Positions 6,486 through 14,039 of a DNA stretch of 36,767 nucleotides are shown here, piece by piece. Made by a program: the position numbers and the translations under genes. The DNA comes from Pseudoselenomonas ruminantium (GTDB lineage: Bacteria; Bacillota; Negativicutes; Selenomonadales; Selenomonadaceae). The notes under the pieces were generated by a model, which was not told the origin of the DNA, searched no databases, and saw only the letters and a list, made by a program, of their open reading frames with translations. The stretch's first letter is position 1; the number at the start of each line of letters is the position of its first letter. The stretch is from NCBI RefSeq assembly GCF_900113715.1, contig NZ_FOQK01000031.1:1-36767 (forward strand), read 5' to 3'.

Positions 6486-6514
6486 TTGACAGCGGCTATG
6501 TTGTATGATATATT
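6486..6514 (+). promoter_or_regulatory. Sigma-A promoter of the ethanolamine operon
   Basis: TTGACA (6486-6491) and TATATT (6509-6514) lie 17 bases apart, a near-consensus promoter. It sits 45 bases after the PTS stop codon and about 180 bases before the eat start codon. The predicted start of transcription, near 6521, is immediately before the leader hairpins. Confidence 0.85.
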
Positions 6515-6523
6515 TACTACATC

Positions 6524-6585
6524 ATCAAGATAGCAATGACGCTTGATTGGAGGCTGGGCCCAGCCTCTGGTCAGGCGTCTTTTTG
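6524..6585 (+). promoter_or_regulatory. Leader attenuator of the ethanolamine operon
   Basis: A 19-bp stem (6538-6556 with 6561-6579, several G-U pairs) with a 4-base loop is followed by TTTTT (6580-6584), forming a strong intrinsic terminator inside the leader. Its left arm overlaps a second possible fold: ATCAAG (6524-6529) pairs with CTTGAT (6542-6547). Within that loop AGC and GCT (6532-6534, 6541-6543) frame the hexaloop AATGAC, with A at position 1 and G at position 4, as in RNA sites of ANTAR antiterminators such as EutV. Only one such hairpin is seen, whereas known ANTAR sites have two, so the assignment is tentative. The hairpin may also terminate PTS transcripts. Confidence 0.65.
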
Positions 6586-6619
6586 TTTGATGAAAAGAAT
6601 GGAATACTTCAGGCAGAGG

Positions 6620-6669
6620 AGCCAGTCTGTTTTGCGGATGTCCAAAGGCATCGGCAGAGCAGGCTGGCT
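6620..6669 (+). other. Second stem-loop in the eat leader
   Basis: AGCCAGTCTG (6620-6629) pairs with CAGGCTGGCT (6660-6669) with one G-U pair. The 30-base loop contains a smaller stem, GATG/CATC. It ends just before the ribosome-binding site GGAGGA at 6681-6686. I found no B12-box, so I do not call it a cobalamin riboswitch. Its function is unknown. Confidence 0.45.
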
Positions 6670-6692
6670 TTTGTGCGATAGGAGGAATAAGT

Positions 6693-8084
6693 ATGAGCAT
6701 GGAACATGGAAGCACAATAACGGTAACACAGGAGATGGCAGGGAAGCGTGAGGAAAATCTTACGCGGGTGTTAAAGCCGATTCATCTTTGGGCTTTAGCA
6801 GTAGGACTTGTCATTTCCGGCAATTATTTTGGCTGGAGCTATGGCTTTGCCGCTGGTGGTGTCATGGGCCTCGCACTGGCACTGATTCCGGTAACGATTT
6901 TTTATGTGACGTTTATTCTCTCGTATTCGGAGCTCGCGACAGCCATTCCGCATGCAGGCGGCCCGTCGGCATACGCACGCCGGGCAATGGGAAAATTCGG
7001 CGGTTATCTGAATGGTATCAGCTGCCTTATCGAGTTTGTCTTTGCTCCGCCGGCTATTGCGCTAGCTGTTGGTGGTTATGTACACGCGTTATTGCCAGCC
7101 ATCGACCCGATGGTGGCAACCGTAGCCGCATTTTTCTTCTTTATCTTTTTGAATTATCTGGGCATGAAGACTTCGGCGACGTTTGAGCTTGCCGTGACGG
7201 TTATTGCCCTGCTGGGGCTCGTGATTTATTGGGGGCTTGCGGCACCGCATTTTGATATGGCCCGCGTTGCCACCACGCCGCTTTTGCCGCATGGCTTTGA
7301 TGGCTTGATGGCCGCTGTACCGTTTGCCATCTGGTTCTATTTGGCTATTGAAGGCGGTGCGATGAGTGCCGAGGAAATGGTCGATCCGCAGCATGATATT
7401 CCGAAAGGTTTTTTGAGTGGTATGGCAACGCTTTTGGTCATGGCGATTCTCACGCTGTTTTTGACGGCTGGCGTAGCCGATGTGGATGCCATTGCTGCGG
7501 TTGATTTCCCGTTGCCGCTGGCACTTAGTGCGGCTTATGGAGAAGGTTCCCTGCCGGTACTCCTTATGAGCGGTATTGGTCTTTTCGGTCTGGTGGCGTC
7601 GCTGCATGGCATCATCGTTGGCTATTCGCGTCAGACTTATGCGATGGCCCGCACGGGGTATCTGCCGAAGTTCCTCGCTCGTCTGGATGCGAAGCATCAT
7701 ACGCCAGTCTGGGCCCTTATCCTGCCGGGCATTGTCTGCCTGTTCACGGCCCTTACGGGGCTTACGGATCTTGTCATCACGGTTGCCTGCTATGGCTCCG
7801 TCGTCATGTATCTGACGAGTCTGGTTTCGTTCTTTATCCTGCGTCATAAGGAGCCGGCACTTCATCGTCCGTTCAAGGTCCCGAGCCTTTTGATTCCAAT
7901 CGTGAGCGTCCTTATGGCGGTGTTCTGCCTTGTGAGCCTTGTCATGGCGTCGAGTGAAGTCCTGCCGTATGTGGTTGGGATTTATGCGCTGGCCATTGCC
8001 TACTATTTCCTGTATGGCAACAAGCATATCCGTCCCTTTGACGAGGAGTTTGGCGTGCTCGATGATCTCGATGAGGAAGCTTGA
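6693..8084 (+). CDS. eat: Ethanolamine permease (APC superfamily)
   Basis: A 463-residue transporter of the amino acid-polyamine-organocation superfamily with about twelve hydrophobic segments. The family-typical first helix region (GLVISGNYFGWSYG) and the SELATAIPHAGGPSAYA stretch match Eat-type ethanolamine permeases. It would bring ethanolamine into the cell for the lyase encoded directly downstream. The start follows GGAGGA by six bases. It is the first gene of an apparent operon eat-eutA-eutB-eutC-cobT-cobS-cobC, and its 3' end abuts eutA. Sequence alone could also fit a close amino-acid permease, but the context makes ethanolamine the natural substrate. Confidence 0.92.
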   Translation: MSMEHGSTITVTQEMAGKREENLTRVLKPIHLWALAVGLVISGNYFGWSYGFAAGGVMGLALALIPVTIFYVTFILSYSELATAIPHAGGPSAYARRAMGKFGGYLNGISCLIEFVFAPPAIALAVGGYVHALLPAIDPMVATVAAFFFFIFLNYLGMKTSATFELAVTVIALLGLVIYWGLAAPHFDMARVATTPLLPHGFDGLMAAVPFAIWFYLAIEGGAMSAEEMVDPQHDIPKGFLSGMATLLVMAILTLFLTAGVADVDAIAAVDFPLPLALSAAYGEGSLPVLLMSGIGLFGLVASLHGIIVGYSRQTYAMARTGYLPKFLARLDAKHHTPVWALILPGIVCLFTALTGLTDLVITVACYGSVVMYLTSLVSFFILRHKEPALHRPFKVPSLLIPIVSVLMAVFCLVSLVMASSEVLPYVVGIYALAIAYYFLYGNKHIRPFDEEFGVLDDLDEEA

Positions 8085-8086
8085 CC

Positions 8087-9487
8087 ATGGCGCAGGAAAT
8101 TCTCAGTGCAGGCATCGATATCGGGACGACCACTTCGCAGGTGATTTTCAGCCGGCTGCGGCTGGAGGACAACTCCTACACGGCGGTGCCCGATGTGAAA
8201 ATCACCCAGAAGGAAGTCCTGTACAGAAGCCCGGTATATTTCACCCCGCTGGGTGCCGATGGCAATATCGATGCCCAGGCCCTGGACCGGCTGCTGCTGG
8301 CTGAGTATGCAAGGGCCAAGGTCAAGCGGGAGGATATTGCCACGGGAGCTGTTATCATCACGGGCGAGAGTTCGCGTAAGCAAAATGCCAGACTGGCGGT
8401 GGAGCGGTTGTCCGCCGCCGCTGGCGATTTTGTCGTGGCGGCGGCCGGCCCGGATTTGGAATCGGTGCTGGCAGGGTATGGCGCCGGCGCGGCCGATTAC
8501 TCGGAAAAATATCCCGCCGCCGTGGCCAATTTCGATATCGGTGGTGGCACGACCAATGTGGCCGTCTTTTTGGGCGGGGAACTTCAGGACGCCTTTGCTT
8601 TGGACATTGGCGGGCGTTTGGTGCGGCTCAATCCGAACCACTGCGTGACCTATCTTTCCCCGCGCATTGAGCCCTTAATCGCTTCGTTGGGGCTGTCGCT
8701 GCAGGTGGGGAGGAAAGCAGACCTTGGGGAGCTTATAAAACTTGCCGAGACCTTTGCCGATATTTGTCGGCGGGTTTGTCTTGATGAACCGCTTACCAAG
8801 GTGGAACAGAAACTATATATCGGCCATGGCAAACGGCCGGGGCGTCTGTCTGCGGTGATGTTTTCGGGGGGCGTGGCAGAATACATCAAGGACACACCGG
8901 TGGCGAGCTGGGACGATATCCTGCGGTATGGTGACATCGGCCCGCTGGTGGGGGCCGCCTTTTGGCGGGTATTTTCAGCGCAGACGGCTGTGCAGCTGCT
9001 TAATTCCCGGGAGCGCATCCGAGCCACCGTTATTGGTGCGGGAAGTTATGCCGTGCGGCTGAGCGGCAGTACCGTCATGATGGATGACGGGCTGGTGCCG
9101 CTTATGAATGTTCCCGTTATTCGCTTGGAGCATCCGGAGCGGCCGAAGGCGTTGATGCAGGAGTACTGCTTGAAGCGGGCCGTTTATCCGCCCCATCAGC
9201 AGGTTGCCATTGCGCTGGCGGGGCCGGCGGGCGGTTCCTATGAAGCGTTAATAAAACTTGCCGATGGGCTGTTGGCGGCAACGGCGGAGGTGAAACAAAT
9301 TCTGCTCGTTGTCATGGAACAGGATTTTGCCAAGGCGTTGGGGCTGTTGCTGAAGCATCGGGGCAGGGGGCGGCAGGTCATCTGCCTTGACCGCATCCAT
9401 GCCCAGCCTGGCGATTATATCGATGTGGGTCGGTCCGTTGCCGGAACAGTGCCAGTGGTGGTCAAGACATTGATTTTTAAAAGTTGA
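8087..9487 (+). CDS. eutA: Ethanolamine ammonia-lyase reactivating factor EutA
   Basis: A 466-residue actin/Hsp70-fold ATPase that releases damaged cobalamin from ethanolamine ammonia-lyase so that fresh AdoCbl can bind. The N-terminal phosphate loop GIDIGTTTSQ and the second nucleotide-binding motif NFDIGGGTTNVAVF are both present. The length is as expected for EutA. A TTG at 8081 overlaps the eat stop codon, but the ATG at 8087 is eight bases from GAGGAA (8073-8078) and is preferred. It lies two bases after eat and 15 bases before eutB, which implies cotranscription and coupled translation. Confidence 0.95.
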   Translation: MAQEILSAGIDIGTTTSQVIFSRLRLEDNSYTAVPDVKITQKEVLYRSPVYFTPLGADGNIDAQALDRLLLAEYARAKVKREDIATGAVIITGESSRKQNARLAVERLSAAAGDFVVAAAGPDLESVLAGYGAGAADYSEKYPAAVANFDIGGGTTNVAVFLGGELQDAFALDIGGRLVRLNPNHCVTYLSPRIEPLIASLGLSLQVGRKADLGELIKLAETFADICRRVCLDEPLTKVEQKLYIGHGKRPGRLSAVMFSGGVAEYIKDTPVASWDDILRYGDIGPLVGAAFWRVFSAQTAVQLLNSRERIRATVIGAGSYAVRLSGSTVMMDDGLVPLMNVPVIRLEHPERPKALMQEYCLKRAVYPPHQQVAIALAGPAGGSYEALIKLADGLLAATAEVKQILLVVMEQDFAKALGLLLKHRGRGRQVICLDRIHAQPGDYIDVGRSVAGTVPVVVKTLIFKS

Positions 9488-9502
9488 AAGTAGGCAATCG
9501 CG

Positions 9503-10900
9503 ATGAAACTAAAGACGAATCTTTTTGGCCAGACGTATTCTTTTAACGATGTCAAAGAAGTGCTGGCCAAGGCGAATGAAGAAAAATCCGGTGACATGCT
9601 GGCTGGCATTGCCGCCAGCGGCAATGTGGAACGGGTGGCGGCAAAAGTCGTTTTAGCCGATATGACGTTGAAGGATTTACGGGAAAATCCAGTGGTTCCT
9701 TATGAAGAAGATGACATTACGCGGGCTGACCAGGACGCCGTGTCCGACACGGTCTACCAGCAGATAAAGGGCTATACGGTGGGCGAGTTCCGTGAATTCC
9801 TGCTGCGGGAGCCGCCGGAGAAACTCTGCGCCATCCGGCCAGGTCTTACGGCTGAGATGGTGGCAGGGGTGACCAAGCTTATGTCCAATATGGATTTGGT
9901 ATATGCGGCCCGCAAGCTGCCGGTGGAGGCTACCTGCAATACGACGATTGGCCGACCAGGGACACTTTCCTCGCGCTTGCAGCCCAATCATGCAACGGAC
10001 AATCCGGCGGGAATCATGGCCTCGGTAATGGAAGGCATCAGTTATGGTGTTGGGGATGCGGTAATCGGCCTTAATCCGGCTGTCGATACCATCGACAGTG
10101 TTGCCAGTATCCTGCGGGAATTCGATACGTTTACGCAGAAATGGCAGATTCCCACCCAGAACTGCGTGCTGGCTCATGTCACGACCCAGATGAAGGTGCT
10201 CGAAAAGGGGCTGGCACCGATGGATCTGATGTTCCAGAGTCTGGCTGGTTCAGAAATTGCCAGCCGGGCTTTTGGCATCAACGTATCCTTGATGGATGAG
10301 GCCTATGCCATCATGCGGGAGAGGAAAAACTCCAGCGGGCCAAACTTCATGTACTTCGAGACGGGGCAGGGCTCGGAGCTTTCTTCGGATGGACACCACG
10401 GTGCTGACCAGTTGGTGATGGAAGCCCGCTGCTATGCTTTTGCCAAGCGCTACCAGCCGTTCCTGGTCAATACAGTGGTTGGCTTCATCGGGCCCGAGTA
10501 CCTCTATGACGGCCGGCAGATGATACGGGCAGGCCTTGAGGACCATTTTATGGGCAAACTCACAGGCATTCCCATGGGCTGCGATGTCTGCTATACCAAT
10601 CACATGCGGGCTGACCAGAATGATCTGGAAAATCTGGCCATGATGCTGGCGATGGCGGACTGCAACTACATCATGGGCATCCCTGGCGGCGACGATGTGA
10701 TGCTGATGTATCAGACGACGAGCTATCACGATGTGGCAGCTCTGCGGCGCTTGACGGGCAAAAAGCCCATCGCGGAATTTGCCCAGCGCATGCAGGAACT
10801 GGAGATTTTGGATGAAGCGGGGAACCTTACGGCAAAGGCCGGAGACCCGTCCCTGTTTTTTGCTGGGAATGAAAGCCTTTCGGGAGGTATGGCGGTATGA
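9503..10900 (+). CDS. eutB: Ethanolamine ammonia-lyase large subunit
   Basis: The 465-residue catalytic subunit of the AdoCbl-dependent enzyme that splits ethanolamine into acetaldehyde and ammonia. The sequence follows the EutB family over its full length, including the CNTTIGRPGTLSSRLQPNHA region and the GIPMGCDVCYTNHMRADQND region near the C-terminal half of the barrel. It overlaps eutC by four bases (ATGA). No microcompartment shell genes or acetaldehyde dehydrogenase lie next to it, so acetaldehyde must be handled by enzymes encoded elsewhere. Confidence 0.97.
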   Translation: MKLKTNLFGQTYSFNDVKEVLAKANEEKSGDMLAGIAASGNVERVAAKVVLADMTLKDLRENPVVPYEEDDITRADQDAVSDTVYQQIKGYTVGEFREFLLREPPEKLCAIRPGLTAEMVAGVTKLMSNMDLVYAARKLPVEATCNTTIGRPGTLSSRLQPNHATDNPAGIMASVMEGISYGVGDAVIGLNPAVDTIDSVASILREFDTFTQKWQIPTQNCVLAHVTTQMKVLEKGLAPMDLMFQSLAGSEIASRAFGINVSLMDEAYAIMRERKNSSGPNFMYFETGQGSELSSDGHHGADQLVMEARCYAFAKRYQPFLVNTVVGFIGPEYLYDGRQMIRAGLEDHFMGKLTGIPMGCDVCYTNHMRADQNDLENLAMMLAMADCNYIMGIPGGDDVMLMYQTTSYHDVAALRRLTGKKPIAEFAQRMQELEILDEAGNLTAKAGDPSLFFAGNESLSGGMAV

Positions 10901-11673
10901 ATGAGACAGAGGGATTTGTAAGCGATATATCCTTGCCAGAAGTGAAAGAGCGGGTTCTCATCGACCACCCTCAGAGTCTGGCGATGGTAAGGCGGTTGAA
11001 GAAGACCACCAATGCCCGTCTGGGCGTTGGCCGTGCCGGGGACCGCTACAAGACGGAAACGCTGCTGAAGTTCCGGGCGGACCATGCAATTGCCCAGGAT
11101 GCCGTCTGGACGGATATCGATGAGACGCTGATTGATGAGATGGGGTTCTACAAAGTCCAGACCTTGGTGGAAAACAAGGAAGAATACGTGCGGCGGCCCG
11201 ACCGGGGGCGGATATTTTCGGATGAGACCATGGAAGCCATCAAGCGGGACTGCCTCCATGAACCCGATGTGCAGCTCGTGGTAGCCGATGGGCTCAGCGG
11301 TTTTGCGATAAATGCGAATCTCAAGGATATCTATGCCATCATGATGGATGGTTTCCAAGAGAAAGGCTATCGGGTGGGAACGCCGATTTTCGTGCGTTAC
11401 AGCCGTGTGGCCACCATGGACAAGATCAGTGAGGCCTTGGGGGCCACGGTCACGATCCAGTTGATTGGCGAGCGGCCGGGACTGGCTACGGGCGAAAGCA
11501 TGAGCGTTTATATGGCTTATGAAGCCAGCAGCAAAAAGCCGGAGTCCCAACGGACGGTGGTTTCGAATATCTATGAGCAGGGCATTCCTCCGTTGGAGGC
11601 AGGGGCTCAGGTCGTTCACTTGACGGAAGTGCTTATGCGGGAAAAGAAAAGTGGGGTGGATCTGAAGATATGA
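10897..11673 (+). CDS. eutC: Ethanolamine ammonia-lyase small subunit
   Basis: The 258-residue partner of EutB; the two subunits hold AdoCbl between them. The family stretch RTTNARLGVGRAGDR-like (here KTTNARLGVGRAGDRYKTET), the VVADGLSGFAINANL segment and the C-terminal YEASSKKPESQRTVVSNIYEQG-type segment are present. It begins in the eutB stop codon (ATGA overlap) and ends in a second ATGA overlap with cobT, so synthesis of lyase and cofactor enzymes appears coupled. Length is slightly below the enterobacterial protein, as in other Firmicutes. Confidence 0.96.
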   Translation: MNETEGFVSDISLPEVKERVLIDHPQSLAMVRRLKKTTNARLGVGRAGDRYKTETLLKFRADHAIAQDAVWTDIDETLIDEMGFYKVQTLVENKEEYVRRPDRGRIFSDETMEAIKRDCLHEPDVQLVVADGLSGFAINANLKDIYAIMMDGFQEKGYRVGTPIFVRYSRVATMDKISEALGATVTIQLIGERPGLATGESMSVYMAYEASSKKPESQRTVVSNIYEQGIPPLEAGAQVVHLTEVLMREKKSGVDLKI

Positions 11674-12683
11674 TGGATGCAGCAGCACGTATGACGGCGA
11701 GAATGGCTATTCCGCCGGGAAGCCTCGGGCTTCTGGAAAAACAGGTGCAGAAATTGTTCCGCGCCTGGCCAAAGTTTTATGACACGATAAAACCCTATCA
11801 TTATATCTTTGCGGCCGATAATGGCGTGGTGGCAGCCGGTGTTGTCCGTCAGGAACAGGCCATCACGTATCTGCAGGCCAAGAACATGATGGCGGGGCAG
11901 GCGGCCATCAGCTGTTTCTGCAAAGCCCAGAACGTCCCCTATGCGGTGGTGGACGTCGGGGTAAACAGTGAGGAGGCCGTCGGCCTTGACCGCAAGGTGG
12001 CTCATGGGACCCGGAATTTTCTGGAAAGCCCGGCGATGACGGAGCGGGAATTCTGGCAGGCTTATGATGCCGGCGCGGAAATGGTGCGGCGGGCCCAGGT
12101 GGCCGGTTGCAATCTCTTGTCCTTTGGTGAGATGGGCATTGGCAATACGACGACCTCAACGGCGGTCCTGCATGCGCTCACCGGAGCGAGCCTGCTCGAA
12201 ATCACTGGCTACGGGGCCAATCCCGGGCATCCAGAGGTCGTCCTGCGCAAGCGGGAGGTCATCCAGACAGCGGTTCGGAAGTATGCACCGCTGATGAAGG
12301 CACCTCAGGGGATGATCCGCTGCGTGGGCGGCTTTGACCTTGCGGCACTGTGCGGTGCGATGGTGGCCTGCCGGGAACAGAACCTTCCCTTTATGCTCGA
12401 TGGCTTCATCACGGCGGTAGCTTTGGCTTGTGCAGTGCGCATCAATCCCGGTGTGAGTGCGATGGCAATCCCATCCCATATGTCGCAGGAACCAGGGATG
12501 CTTTACGCCCTGCAGGCGGCGGGAATCCGTACCGATGAGGTGCCGATACAGGCTGGCCTGCGGCTCGGTGAAGGAACCGGGGCGATCCTCGGGCTATCCA
12601 TGTTGCGGACGATGTTGTATACTGTTTATAACATGAAAACAATGGATGGATTAATATCAGAAAGTTGTGGTGCCGCAAAATGA
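11670..12683 (+). CDS. cobT: Nicotinate-nucleotide--dimethylbenzimidazole phosphoribosyltransferase
   Basis: A 337-residue enzyme that makes alpha-ribazole phosphate from nicotinate mononucleotide and a lower-ligand base such as 5,6-dimethylbenzimidazole. The PPGSLGLLE N-terminal motif, the FGEMGIGNTTTS loop and the C-terminal RLGEGTGAIL segment with the catalytic glutamate are intact. It starts in the eutC stop codon (11670, or ATG at 11673) and overlaps cobS by four bases. With cobS and cobC it builds the nucleotide loop of cobalamin, and its position suggests it supplies the cofactor for EutBC. Confidence 0.96.
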   Translation: MMDAAARMTARMAIPPGSLGLLEKQVQKLFRAWPKFYDTIKPYHYIFAADNGVVAAGVVRQEQAITYLQAKNMMAGQAAISCFCKAQNVPYAVVDVGVNSEEAVGLDRKVAHGTRNFLESPAMTEREFWQAYDAGAEMVRRAQVAGCNLLSFGEMGIGNTTTSTAVLHALTGASLLEITGYGANPGHPEVVLRKREVIQTAVRKYAPLMKAPQGMIRCVGGFDLAALCGAMVACREQNLPFMLDGFITAVALACAVRINPGVSAMAIPSHMSQEPGMLYALQAAGIRTDEVPIQAGLRLGEGTGAILGLSMLRTMLYTVYNMKTMDGLISESCGAAK

Positions 12684-13438
12684 GTAGTCTGCGTTCTTTT
12701 GTCTTACTGTTGCAATTCTTTACACGTTTGCCTTTGCCCTGGCAGATCCCCTTTGAGGAGGGGATGCTGTCCAGGGCAATTGTTTGGCTGCCGCTGGTGG
12801 GAGTCATCATCGGCAGTATGAATGCCTTGGCCTATATGCTCGGGAATGTCATGGCGGGGCCGGAGGCAGGCGTGTTCTTTGCTATGGGGGCCAATCTGTT
12901 CCTGACGGGAGCGTTCCATCTCGATGGTTTGGCCGATACCTGCGATGGCATTTATTCGAGCCGTAAGCGGGAACGCATGCTGGAAATCATGAAGGACAGC
13001 CGCCTGGGAACCAATGGGGCCTGTGCCCTGCTATTGGTGTTTCTGGCACGGTATCATGGACTGTTGCTGCTGCCCGAGGAGCTGATCCCGCTGGTTATCC
13101 TGCTGATGCCGACGGTGGCGCGGGCCTGCAACCCGCTATTGATGCTGTCGGAGTATGCACGCAAAGAAGGCTTGGGCAATCTTTTCATCGGCAAGGTTAC
13201 CTGGGGGCGCGTGCTGGTATCGGTAGGCCTTGGCGCTCTGCTGGTATATGCCATGACAGAGAATTACTGGCTGCTGTGGGCCTATCTGCTGCTGGCTGTC
13301 TGGCAGCGGCTTTTCACCCGCTATATCTCAGGCATCTTGGGCGGCATGACGGGAGATACTTTGGGAGCTGGCGATGAATTGAGTGAGATACTCTTTCTGG
13401 GGGTTTGCTGTCTGGGGGCTTATCATGGCTGGCTTTGA
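12680..13438 (+). CDS. cobS: Adenosylcobinamide-GDP ribazoletransferase (cobalamin synthase)
   Basis: A 252-residue integral membrane enzyme joining adenosylcobinamide-GDP and alpha-ribazole (phosphate) in the last assembly of AdoCbl. The motif GAFHLDGLADTCDG, the following SRKRERMLEIMKDSRLGTNG stretch and the C-terminal GGMTGDTLGA motif are typical of CobS. Several hydrophobic segments are visible. An in-frame TTG at 12665 would lengthen it, but the ATG at 12680 overlaps the cobT stop (ATGA) and fits the family N-terminus. It overlaps cobC by 14 bases. The kinase/guanylyltransferase CobU that supplies its substrate is not in this cluster. Confidence 0.95.
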   Translation: MSSLRSFVLLLQFFTRLPLPWQIPFEEGMLSRAIVWLPLVGVIIGSMNALAYMLGNVMAGPEAGVFFAMGANLFLTGAFHLDGLADTCDGIYSSRKRERMLEIMKDSRLGTNGACALLLVFLARYHGLLLLPEELIPLVILLMPTVARACNPLLMLSEYARKEGLGNLFIGKVTWGRVLVSVGLGALLVYAMTENYWLLWAYLLLAVWQRLFTRYISGILGGMTGDTLGAGDELSEILFLGVCCLGAYHGWL

Positions 13439-14039
13439 TTCCGATCCCTTGCGGGTCTATTTGCTTCGCCATGGTGAGGCCTTGGGCAATGTGCAGGGGG
13501 GCTACTATGGGCGCACCGATTGCCCGCTGACCGCCAAAGGGTGCCGGCAGGCAGAAAGGGCCGGCGCCACCCTGCGGGAATTGCGGGCGGCAGGATCGGG
13601 CAGGGATCTGCTGCTCCTTACCAGTCCCTTGGAGCGGGCACGGCACACGGCGGAAATAGTCCGCGAAGCTGCCGGGCTTGACGGGGCCGTCCTCGTTGAG
13701 CCGGATTGGCAGGAAATCGACTTTGGCCGCTGGGAGAAGCGCCACTACCAAGACATAGCGCGGGAAGAACCGGCAGCATGGCAGAGCCTTTGTGACGATT
13801 GGCAGGCGTTCTGCTATCCGCAGGGGGAAAGCTTCCGCATGTTCGCGGAACGTGTCATAGGGGCATGGCAAAAGTGGCAGCAGGCTGCTGCAAGAGAGGA
13901 GAAAGACCTGCTCGTAGTCAGTCATGGCGGCGTGCTGAAAGTCATCCGCTTGTTTGCTGAGGCGCGGCCCTGGGAGGATTTCTGGCAGCTGGACATTTCT
14001 TTGGGGGAAGTCCAGCTTATGTCCCTTCCGGTTTGCTGA
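13425..14039 (+). CDS. cobC: Alpha-ribazole phosphatase (histidine phosphatase superfamily)
   Basis: A 204-residue phosphohistidine-type phosphatase with the RHGEALGN motif near the N-terminus (catalytic histidine), LTSPLERARHTAE, and the second catalytic histidine in VVSHGGVL. On sequence it could be any small histidine phosphatase or phosphoglycerate mutase, but its position right after cobT-cobS makes alpha-ribazole phosphatase the best call. The start at 13425 follows GGGGG (13414-13418) and lies inside the cobS 3' end; an upstream start at 13383 has no good ribosome site. It is the last gene of the eut-cob unit, and no terminator is seen before the next promoter. Confidence 0.85.
   Translation: MAGFDSDPLRVYLLRHGEALGNVQGGYYGRTDCPLTAKGCRQAERAGATLRELRAAGSGRDLLLLTSPLERARHTAEIVREAAGLDGAVLVEPDWQEIDFGRWEKRHYQDIAREEPAAWQSLCDDWQAFCYPQGESFRMFAERVIGAWQKWQQAAAREEKDLLVVSHGGVLKVIRLFAEARPWEDFWQLDISLGEVQLMSLPVC

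Follow-up and report, generated by a model that had tools for sequence, protein, structure and literature searches.

How an ethanolamine utilization (eut) operon is controlled when no eut regulator is encoded beside it is the question raised by the stretch of Pseudoselenomonas ruminantium DNA analysed here (36,767 nucleotides of contig NZ_FOQK01000031.1, hereafter the window; the genus is read as Selenomonas). The operon lies on the forward strand in the order eat-eutA-eutB-eutC-cobT-cobS-cobC. It comprises the ethanolamine permease gene eat (6693–8084; NCBIfam TIGR00908, 475 bits against a cut-off of 382), eutA (8081–9487; PF06277), eutB (9503–10900; PF06751), eutC (10897–11673; PF05985), a cobT-like gene (11670–12683; TIGR03160, 283 bits, under the cut-off of 319), cobS (12665–13438; TIGR00317, 160 bits, cut-off 110) and a cobC-like gene for an alpha-ribazole phosphatase (13383–14039; TIGR03162, 149 bits, under the cut-off of 163). 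This B12-dependent operon (6693–14039) thus includes cobT, cobS and cobC, and no cobalamin riboswitch, the element expected near eut under AdoCbl control of the EutX type, was found in the window, where an Rfam scan of all 36.8 kb returned zero families at gathering score. As the initial annotation had stated, neither eutV nor eutW is present in the window, and none was found linked to the operon in the related genus loci L040–L044.

The leader opens, as initially annotated, with a near-consensus promoter followed by a T-tailed terminator of 19 bp. The promoter (6486–6514, forward strand) consists of a -35 element TTGACA (6486–6491), a 17-base spacer and a -10 element TATATT (6509–6514), matching 11 of the 12 consensus letters, and the transcript start of the operon is predicted near 6521. 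A small hairpin, AGC-AATGAC-GCT, follows on the same strand (6532–6543), its six-base loop carrying A at position 1 and G at position 4 (A1 and G4), as had been claimed. The intrinsic terminator itself (6538–6584, forward strand), identified by folding and covariation, has 19 pairs and a loop of 4 (6538–6579) and ends in TTTTT (6580–6584); the last bases of the hexaloop and the 3′ strand of the small hairpin's stem are part of its 5′ arm. The fold of this first module (6513–6600) has a z of -6.6 against shuffles.

The initial annotation had counted only one hexaloop hairpin in the leader, missing a second, GGC-AGAGGA-GCC, at 6612–6623 on the same strand and again with A1 and G4. It is joined to a further forward-strand terminator hairpin with a TTTT tail (6620–6672; fold z -8.2), which was recovered by two module/hairpin scans and of which a terminator-tool scan of the leader reports the inner part only. 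This second module directly precedes the ribosome-binding site AGGAGG of eat (6680–6685, forward strand). What held of the earlier count is that there is one hexaloop per terminator: the leader consists of two modules in series, a single hexaloop being coupled to a separate terminator in each, and not of one dual-hairpin site. In both, a hairpin with an A1/G4 hexaloop and a C-G-closed stem reaches into the terminator's 5′ arm. The alternative hairpin ATCAAG/CTTGAT, also annotated initially, is present in the window but is not conserved, the arms in L043 and L044 being ATTCAG and CTTGTG; the hexaloop hairpin is kept in these two loci though the arms have changed. Rfam gave two weak matches in the eut leader region, both far under their thresholds.

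The conservation of this arrangement was followed in 60 genomes, 14 of which carry eutB: 7 of the 22 genus genomes, 0 of 15 from the rest of the family and 7 of 23 from other families of the class. Twelve leaders upstream of eat were compared, namely those of the window, of five further genus loci (L040–L044) and of six loci from other families (L045–L050); the seventh genus genome (G021), whose contig begins 125 bases before eutB, and L051, which ends short of eat, were left out. When modules were defined by the pattern RGCA.....GCY plus a terminator, all 12 leaders had at least one and 11 had two in a row, so the hexaloop singled out by the initial annotation recurs in all the relatives compared. 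Both modules were found in the six Selenomonas leaders, window included, and any module at all in only 6 of 600 plain shuffles of the eut leaders. The loops of module 1 in these six are AATGAC, AACGAC or AATGGC, and position 4 is G in both modules throughout the genus; in the other families, position 4 is A in module 1 (6/6) and G in module 2. With the loop letters unforced, 50 terminator-associated RGC......GCY sites of Selenomonadaceae and related loci were counted: 47 have A1 and 49 have G4, and the same count in other eut loci gave 45/49 for each.

The terminators were also examined for covariation. A first alignment (alignment A1) contained 18 of the 23 eut modules, five near-copies being omitted (L041, L042 and module 2 of L040); a second (alignment A2) kept 15 modules, after removal of three genus module-2 rows with misaligned terminators in the first. 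Over these 15 modules, terminator pairing holds in 93.9% of 164 cells and 9 of 11 pairs have changed on both sides, with a covariation score of 0.723 against 0.276 for shuffled alignments and none of 500 shuffles as high. Covariation in the small hairpin carries little weight, since the modules had been preselected by RGCA.....GCY. Modules of different genes were also aligned together (A3), but this alignment failed on its 3′ side and was discarded.

Hexaloops of this kind are the sites of ANTAR antiterminators, for which a dual-hairpin definition and eut regulators have been described (PMC8164766, PMC5821096). In Enterococcus faecalis, both hairpins are required for induction, and EutV is sensitive to each of the four loop positions (PMC3369931). 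The upstream partner (P1) of the terminator-overlapping hairpin (P2) was searched for as an A..G.. hexaloop on a stem of at least 3 pairs, ending 3–15 nt before P2. P1 was found in 3 of the 79 modules upstream of eut, agcS, amtB and glnA, which come from the Selenomonas family with a few from other families of the class, and with 4 or more pairs in 1. The corresponding counts at eut loci outside Negativicutes were 31 and 27 of 46 modules, a set drawn from 27 loci of Clostridium, Enterococcus, Streptococcus, Bacillales and others, including a few non-Firmicutes, for which a stricter T tail was used than for the 79, the sequences within each set being related. A canonical P1 (A1/G4 hexaloop, linker of 5–12 nt) was found before none of the 12 genus eut modules. 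The guess in the initial annotation of a single-hairpin site thus fits the genus and, since P1 was not found there, one hexaloop per terminator would have to suffice.

A search of the window's genome for the regulator, on whose presence the earlier proposal depended, found one ANTAR protein (76 bits, cut-off 27.3), encoded outside the window. Every genus genome has exactly one such gene (22/22), with or without eut. In the window's genome it is paired with a GAF_PdtaS/HisKA_2 kinase gene, between tsaD and a mannitol PTS cluster, these neighbours being named by eye from their translations. The kinase-ANTAR pair (L002, 7053–9103) stands directly upstream of a mannitol regulator and the PTS cluster (also named by eye), and a link between the kinase signal and carbon supply is possible. 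The protein has a PF00072 receiver and a PF03861 ANTAR domain, and its closest solved structures are 1s8n and EutV (6wsh). When aligned to Enterococcus mundtii EutV, with positions as named in PMC8934654, this core ANTAR keeps the RNA-contact positions K143, Y164 and M172, with R for K147, and the phospho-acceptor D54.

In other families, an ANTAR regulator gene lies beside eut in all six loci that reach eat and the kinase gene in five, the sixth stretch beginning at the regulator so that the kinase side falls outside it; these six genomes have two ANTAR genes each. In a quick tree of 77 ANTAR proteins, with the genus thinned to 7, the eut-linked regulators of Negativicutes cluster together (8 rows, support 94) and separately from the core ANTARs, those of Selenomonas and other Negativicutes falling together (31 rows) with a weak support of 52. 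An ANTAR-controlled eut leader, as initially annotated, is thus borne out in its ANTAR protein and its conserved hexaloops and not in its EutVW-like dedicated regulator, whose place is likely taken by the core nitrogen ANTAR pair.

A variant hexaloop was seen in ten eut leaders (L045–L050, L283, L337, L346 and L355) that have a EutV of the Negativicutes/Desulfosporosinus type. These leaders contain a strong-terminator hexaloop with A4 replacing G4, for example GGC-AATAAC-GCC, and a recurring AAWGRAATA-like stretch with little stem around it lies a few bases upstream. In the EutV of L045, Y164 is replaced by H and M172 by T. Judging from these sequences, the A4 hexaloops and the altered EutV residues may possibly represent a second recognition code.

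To find further modules in the window's own genome, a covariance model of the 15 eut modules (R1) was used; it ranked module 1 of the window first and the leader of agcS, a Na+:alanine-type symporter gene, second (E 0.8), leaving amtB, glnA and glnH unmatched among the 150 of 600 first-look candidates that were scored. A pattern search with RGCAAYGRNGCY gave 52 sites in this genome against 28 for the reversed pattern. Fifty of the 52 were examined (C43 and C51 left out), and the five with a terminator score of at least 8 all lie before nitrogen genes: eut, agcS, the glutamine-type ABC transporter operon glnHPQ, amtB-glnK and a glutamine synthetase-family gene. Three more sites, L179, L193 and L199, were set aside for their weak terminator scores (6.0–7.6), L193 lying inside an agcS-paralogue gene. 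The glnHPQ module was seen in one genome only.

Across the genus, GGC-AAYGRC-GCC with a terminator is present in 18 of 21 agcS leaders and absent in 3; the search asked for A1 and a purine at position 4, and all 18 have G4, with positions 3 and 5 varying. Modules occur in 18 of 20 amtB leaders, often two in each, the 20 being the closest of 31 amt loci and the 11 others all paralogues; scanned separately, several of these 11 also carry modules, and one has no upstream sequence. They occur as well in 20 of 29 glnA leaders, the nine without an A1/G4 module being L265, L266, L269, L271, L272, L276, L277, L278 and L281, among which L265 and L272 have a module once any loop letters are allowed. Plain shuffles yielded modules in 5 of 2100 cases for agcS, 8 of 2000 for amtB and 3 of 2900 for glnA. 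Genus loci yielded 190 terminator-like hairpins; the 35 of these with a hexaloop all lie before eut, amtB, agcS or glnA, but the loci were chosen for holding these genes, so that this is not a genome-wide rate, and the scan was strict enough to miss module 1 of the window and that of glnH. Outside the genus, a strong module was found in only one of 10 agcS orthologues (L117–L126), that of L124, where it may end the upstream gene, and in a strict scan of 30 agcS-family leaders, L124 and L143 had modules and L125 a weak one; L144 and L145 have the pattern alone. Since like modules precede amtB-glnK, glutamine synthetase, agcS and the glutamine-type ABC transporter genes, eut seems, by its leader sequence, to be part of an ANTAR nitrogen regulon.

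Other forms of the hairpin were noted in these leaders. In the amtB-glnK leaders L218 and L223–L232, module 2 is mostly GAC-AAWGGC-GTC and not of the RGC/GCY type, and this form is also found in other genera. The glnA or amtB leaders L265 (G036), L272 (G025) and L241 (G046) have a hexaloop with G1 instead of A1 at the terminator, in the forms GGC-GATGAN-GCC or GGC-GATGAG-GCC.

Modules also stand near ANTAR genes. In G022, one of the glnA copies has a module of score 15.2, and an ANTAR gene lies on the same strand about 200 bases downstream of that copy. In G027, an agcS paralogue, a kinase and an ANTAR regulator form an operon with the hexaloop AGC-AATGAC-GCT in front of it; the terminator there is weak, was missed by the scan and folds only slightly better than shuffles (z -1.7). 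In each of these genomes an ANTAR gene therefore lies behind a hexaloop (L220 in G027; L055/L280 in G022), and autoregulation of these two genes is possible. Conversely, no module was found at glnA or agcS in G029, where no ANTAR was found, nor at glnA or amtB in G033, whose ANTAR match of 20.8 bits is sub-threshold. Overall, a glnA module is present in 20 of 25 genomes with ANTAR against 0 of 2 without a good ANTAR, a difference that is not significant (p about 0.06). An A1/G4 module at glnA is missing in five ANTAR-positive genomes, G025, G035, G036, G041 and G046; in G025 and G036 the gene does have a module with G at loop position 1. Because of these five genomes, and of the 3 of 21 genus agcS leaders without a module, the link between ANTAR presence and modules is not strict. 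In G029, a member of the family, neither ANTAR nor amtB was found, and nitrogen control may have been lost there as a set.

Leader anatomy, conservation, shared targets and the lack of a detectable canonical P1 come directly from the computation, and other readings of them were weighed. The hairpins could be ordinary terminators, ending the ptsG transcript or constantly lowering eut, with the hexaloop there by chance. Plain intrinsic terminators are common, and in the window the first terminator comes about 95 bases after the end of ptsG; the promoter, however, sits between ptsG and the terminators. Moreover, in L043 and L044 no ptsG was found upstream, yet promoter and both modules are kept; therefore, the eut hairpins are not the ptsG terminator and, given also the rarity of modules in shuffled leaders, this reading is very improbable. 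Control by a riboswitch or T-box (AdoCbl, glutamine or tRNA) would suit leader termination before B12 and nitrogen genes, but besides the empty scan of the window, Rfam found nothing at gathering score in seven related loci except one tRNA gene, and such control can be practically dismissed. A reading in which the hexaloop is bound by another RNA-binding protein or a non-ANTAR regulator, the core ANTAR having other targets, gains from the loose match between ANTAR presence and modules, and from the fact that we infer hexaloop binding by the core ANTAR. It is nevertheless improbable: hexaloops precede operons that carry or adjoin ANTAR genes (G022, G027 with its weak terminator, and eut of other families), one ANTAR is present in each of the 22 genus genomes, and A1 and G4 are known ANTAR determinants (PMC3369931).

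The strongest competitor, still unlikely, is a canonical dual-hairpin ANTAR site with a cryptic P1, the transcript starting further upstream or P1 having a form outside the search. The sensitivity of the search was indeed limited, as the 31 of 46 recovered at eut loci of other bacteria indicates, and the hexaloop often has, by eye, an A-rich stretch containing AATA or GATA in front of it; even so, any accepted P1 form was present in only 3 of the 79 modules. Room for P1 was judged from transcript starts, which were predicted by taking the highest-scoring promoter match within some 75 nt. They lie 11 nt before the hexaloop stem in all six genus eut leaders and, for amtB, 8–18 nt before the hexaloop in 16 of 17 (8–16 nt in 15 of 17), with one at 56. 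As a 12-nt P1 plus a 5-nt linker is longer than this, the eut and nearly all amtB leaders have no room for one, if these starts are right. For agcS the predicted starts are at 18–22 nt (18/18) and for glnA at 9–22 nt in 18 of 19, with one at 40, so that a minimal P1 would just fit at agcS and in most glnA leaders, but none was found there.

Single-hexaloop ANTAR antitermination of eut by the core ANTAR, as part of a nitrogen-supply regulon, is thus the reading that we prefer, with a probability of roughly 0.78. From the leader and protein sequences, we infer the binding, the antitermination, the protein responsible and the nitrogen-status signal as follows. The operon would be transcribed from its strong promoter and halted about 60 nt on by the first terminator or, if this is passed, by the second. 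At the 5′ base of each terminator, the 3-bp hairpin with its A..G.. hexaloop would share its 3′ half with the terminator's 5′ arm. The core ANTAR, encoded with a PdtaS-type histidine kinase, would when phosphorylated bind the hexaloop as a dimer and keep the small hairpin closed, blocking the terminator, and the same protein would open the modules before amtB-glnK, glutamine synthetase, agcS and glnHPQ, eut being one branch. A short 5′ tail or the repeated modules would stand in for P1.

The EutV/EutW systems of Enterococcus, Listeria and Clostridium eut operons (PMC3369931, PMC8934654) are alike in the A1/G4 hexaloop at the 5′ base of a terminator, in the eut target and in the pairing of an ANTAR response regulator with a histidine kinase. 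They differ from the present case, in which no P1 and no eut-linked EutVW were found, two single-hexaloop modules stand in series and the regulator is apparently common to nitrogen assimilation genes. The nitrogen theme of ANTAR control is already known: many bacteria have dual-hairpin sites upstream of genes for P-II, ammonium transporters and glutamine synthase (PMC3369931). The ANTAR nitrogen regulon of Desulfotomaculum acetoxidans has similar targets (P-II, ammonium transporter, glutamine/glutamate synthase) and several sites per genome (PMC3369931), but regulons of that type were found with a dual-hairpin model, whereas here there is one hexaloop per terminator and eut and agcS are included. 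The nasF leader is likewise alike in hexaloop and terminator, but its regulator NasR is a one-component NIT-ANTAR protein whose natural site is a P1P2 pair (PMC7496416), and the hexaloops here are single. NasR needs about 1 uM to bind two hairpins and about 12 uM to bind one, its binding of the single hairpin being about twelvefold weaker (PMC7496416). The EutV dimer contacts one hexaloop at a time, with G4 as the one base-specific contact, and its minimal binding motif is one hexaloop; P1 has been proposed to recruit the dimer before P2, and a longer linker abolishes antitermination (PMC8934654). In the literature covered, Selenomonas sites, a single-hexaloop design, tandem modules or core-ANTAR control of eut were not found described, though PMC3369931 may tabulate Selenomonas hits in its supplement.

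Why both hairpins are needed when the dimer contacts a single hexaloop is a question raised in PMC8934654, and a regulon apparently without P1 makes it directly testable. The results also suggest that dual-hairpin search models would tend to miss such sites. For the family as a whole, we consider it probable, with less confidence than for eut alone, that Selenomonadaceae use P1-less ANTAR antitermination for an entire nitrogen regulon, in which one hexaloop lying no more than about 20 nt from the transcript start would both recruit the regulator and block the terminator, with tandem modules at eut and amtB taking the place of a two-hairpin site. Other families of the class keep a dedicated EutVW pair at eut; in Selenomonadaceae, eut would have moved from EutVW to the core ANTAR with its two-terminator leader kept. 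A catabolic operon would thus apparently have exchanged its dedicated RNA-binding regulator for one that serves nitrogen control in general, with the leader design retained.
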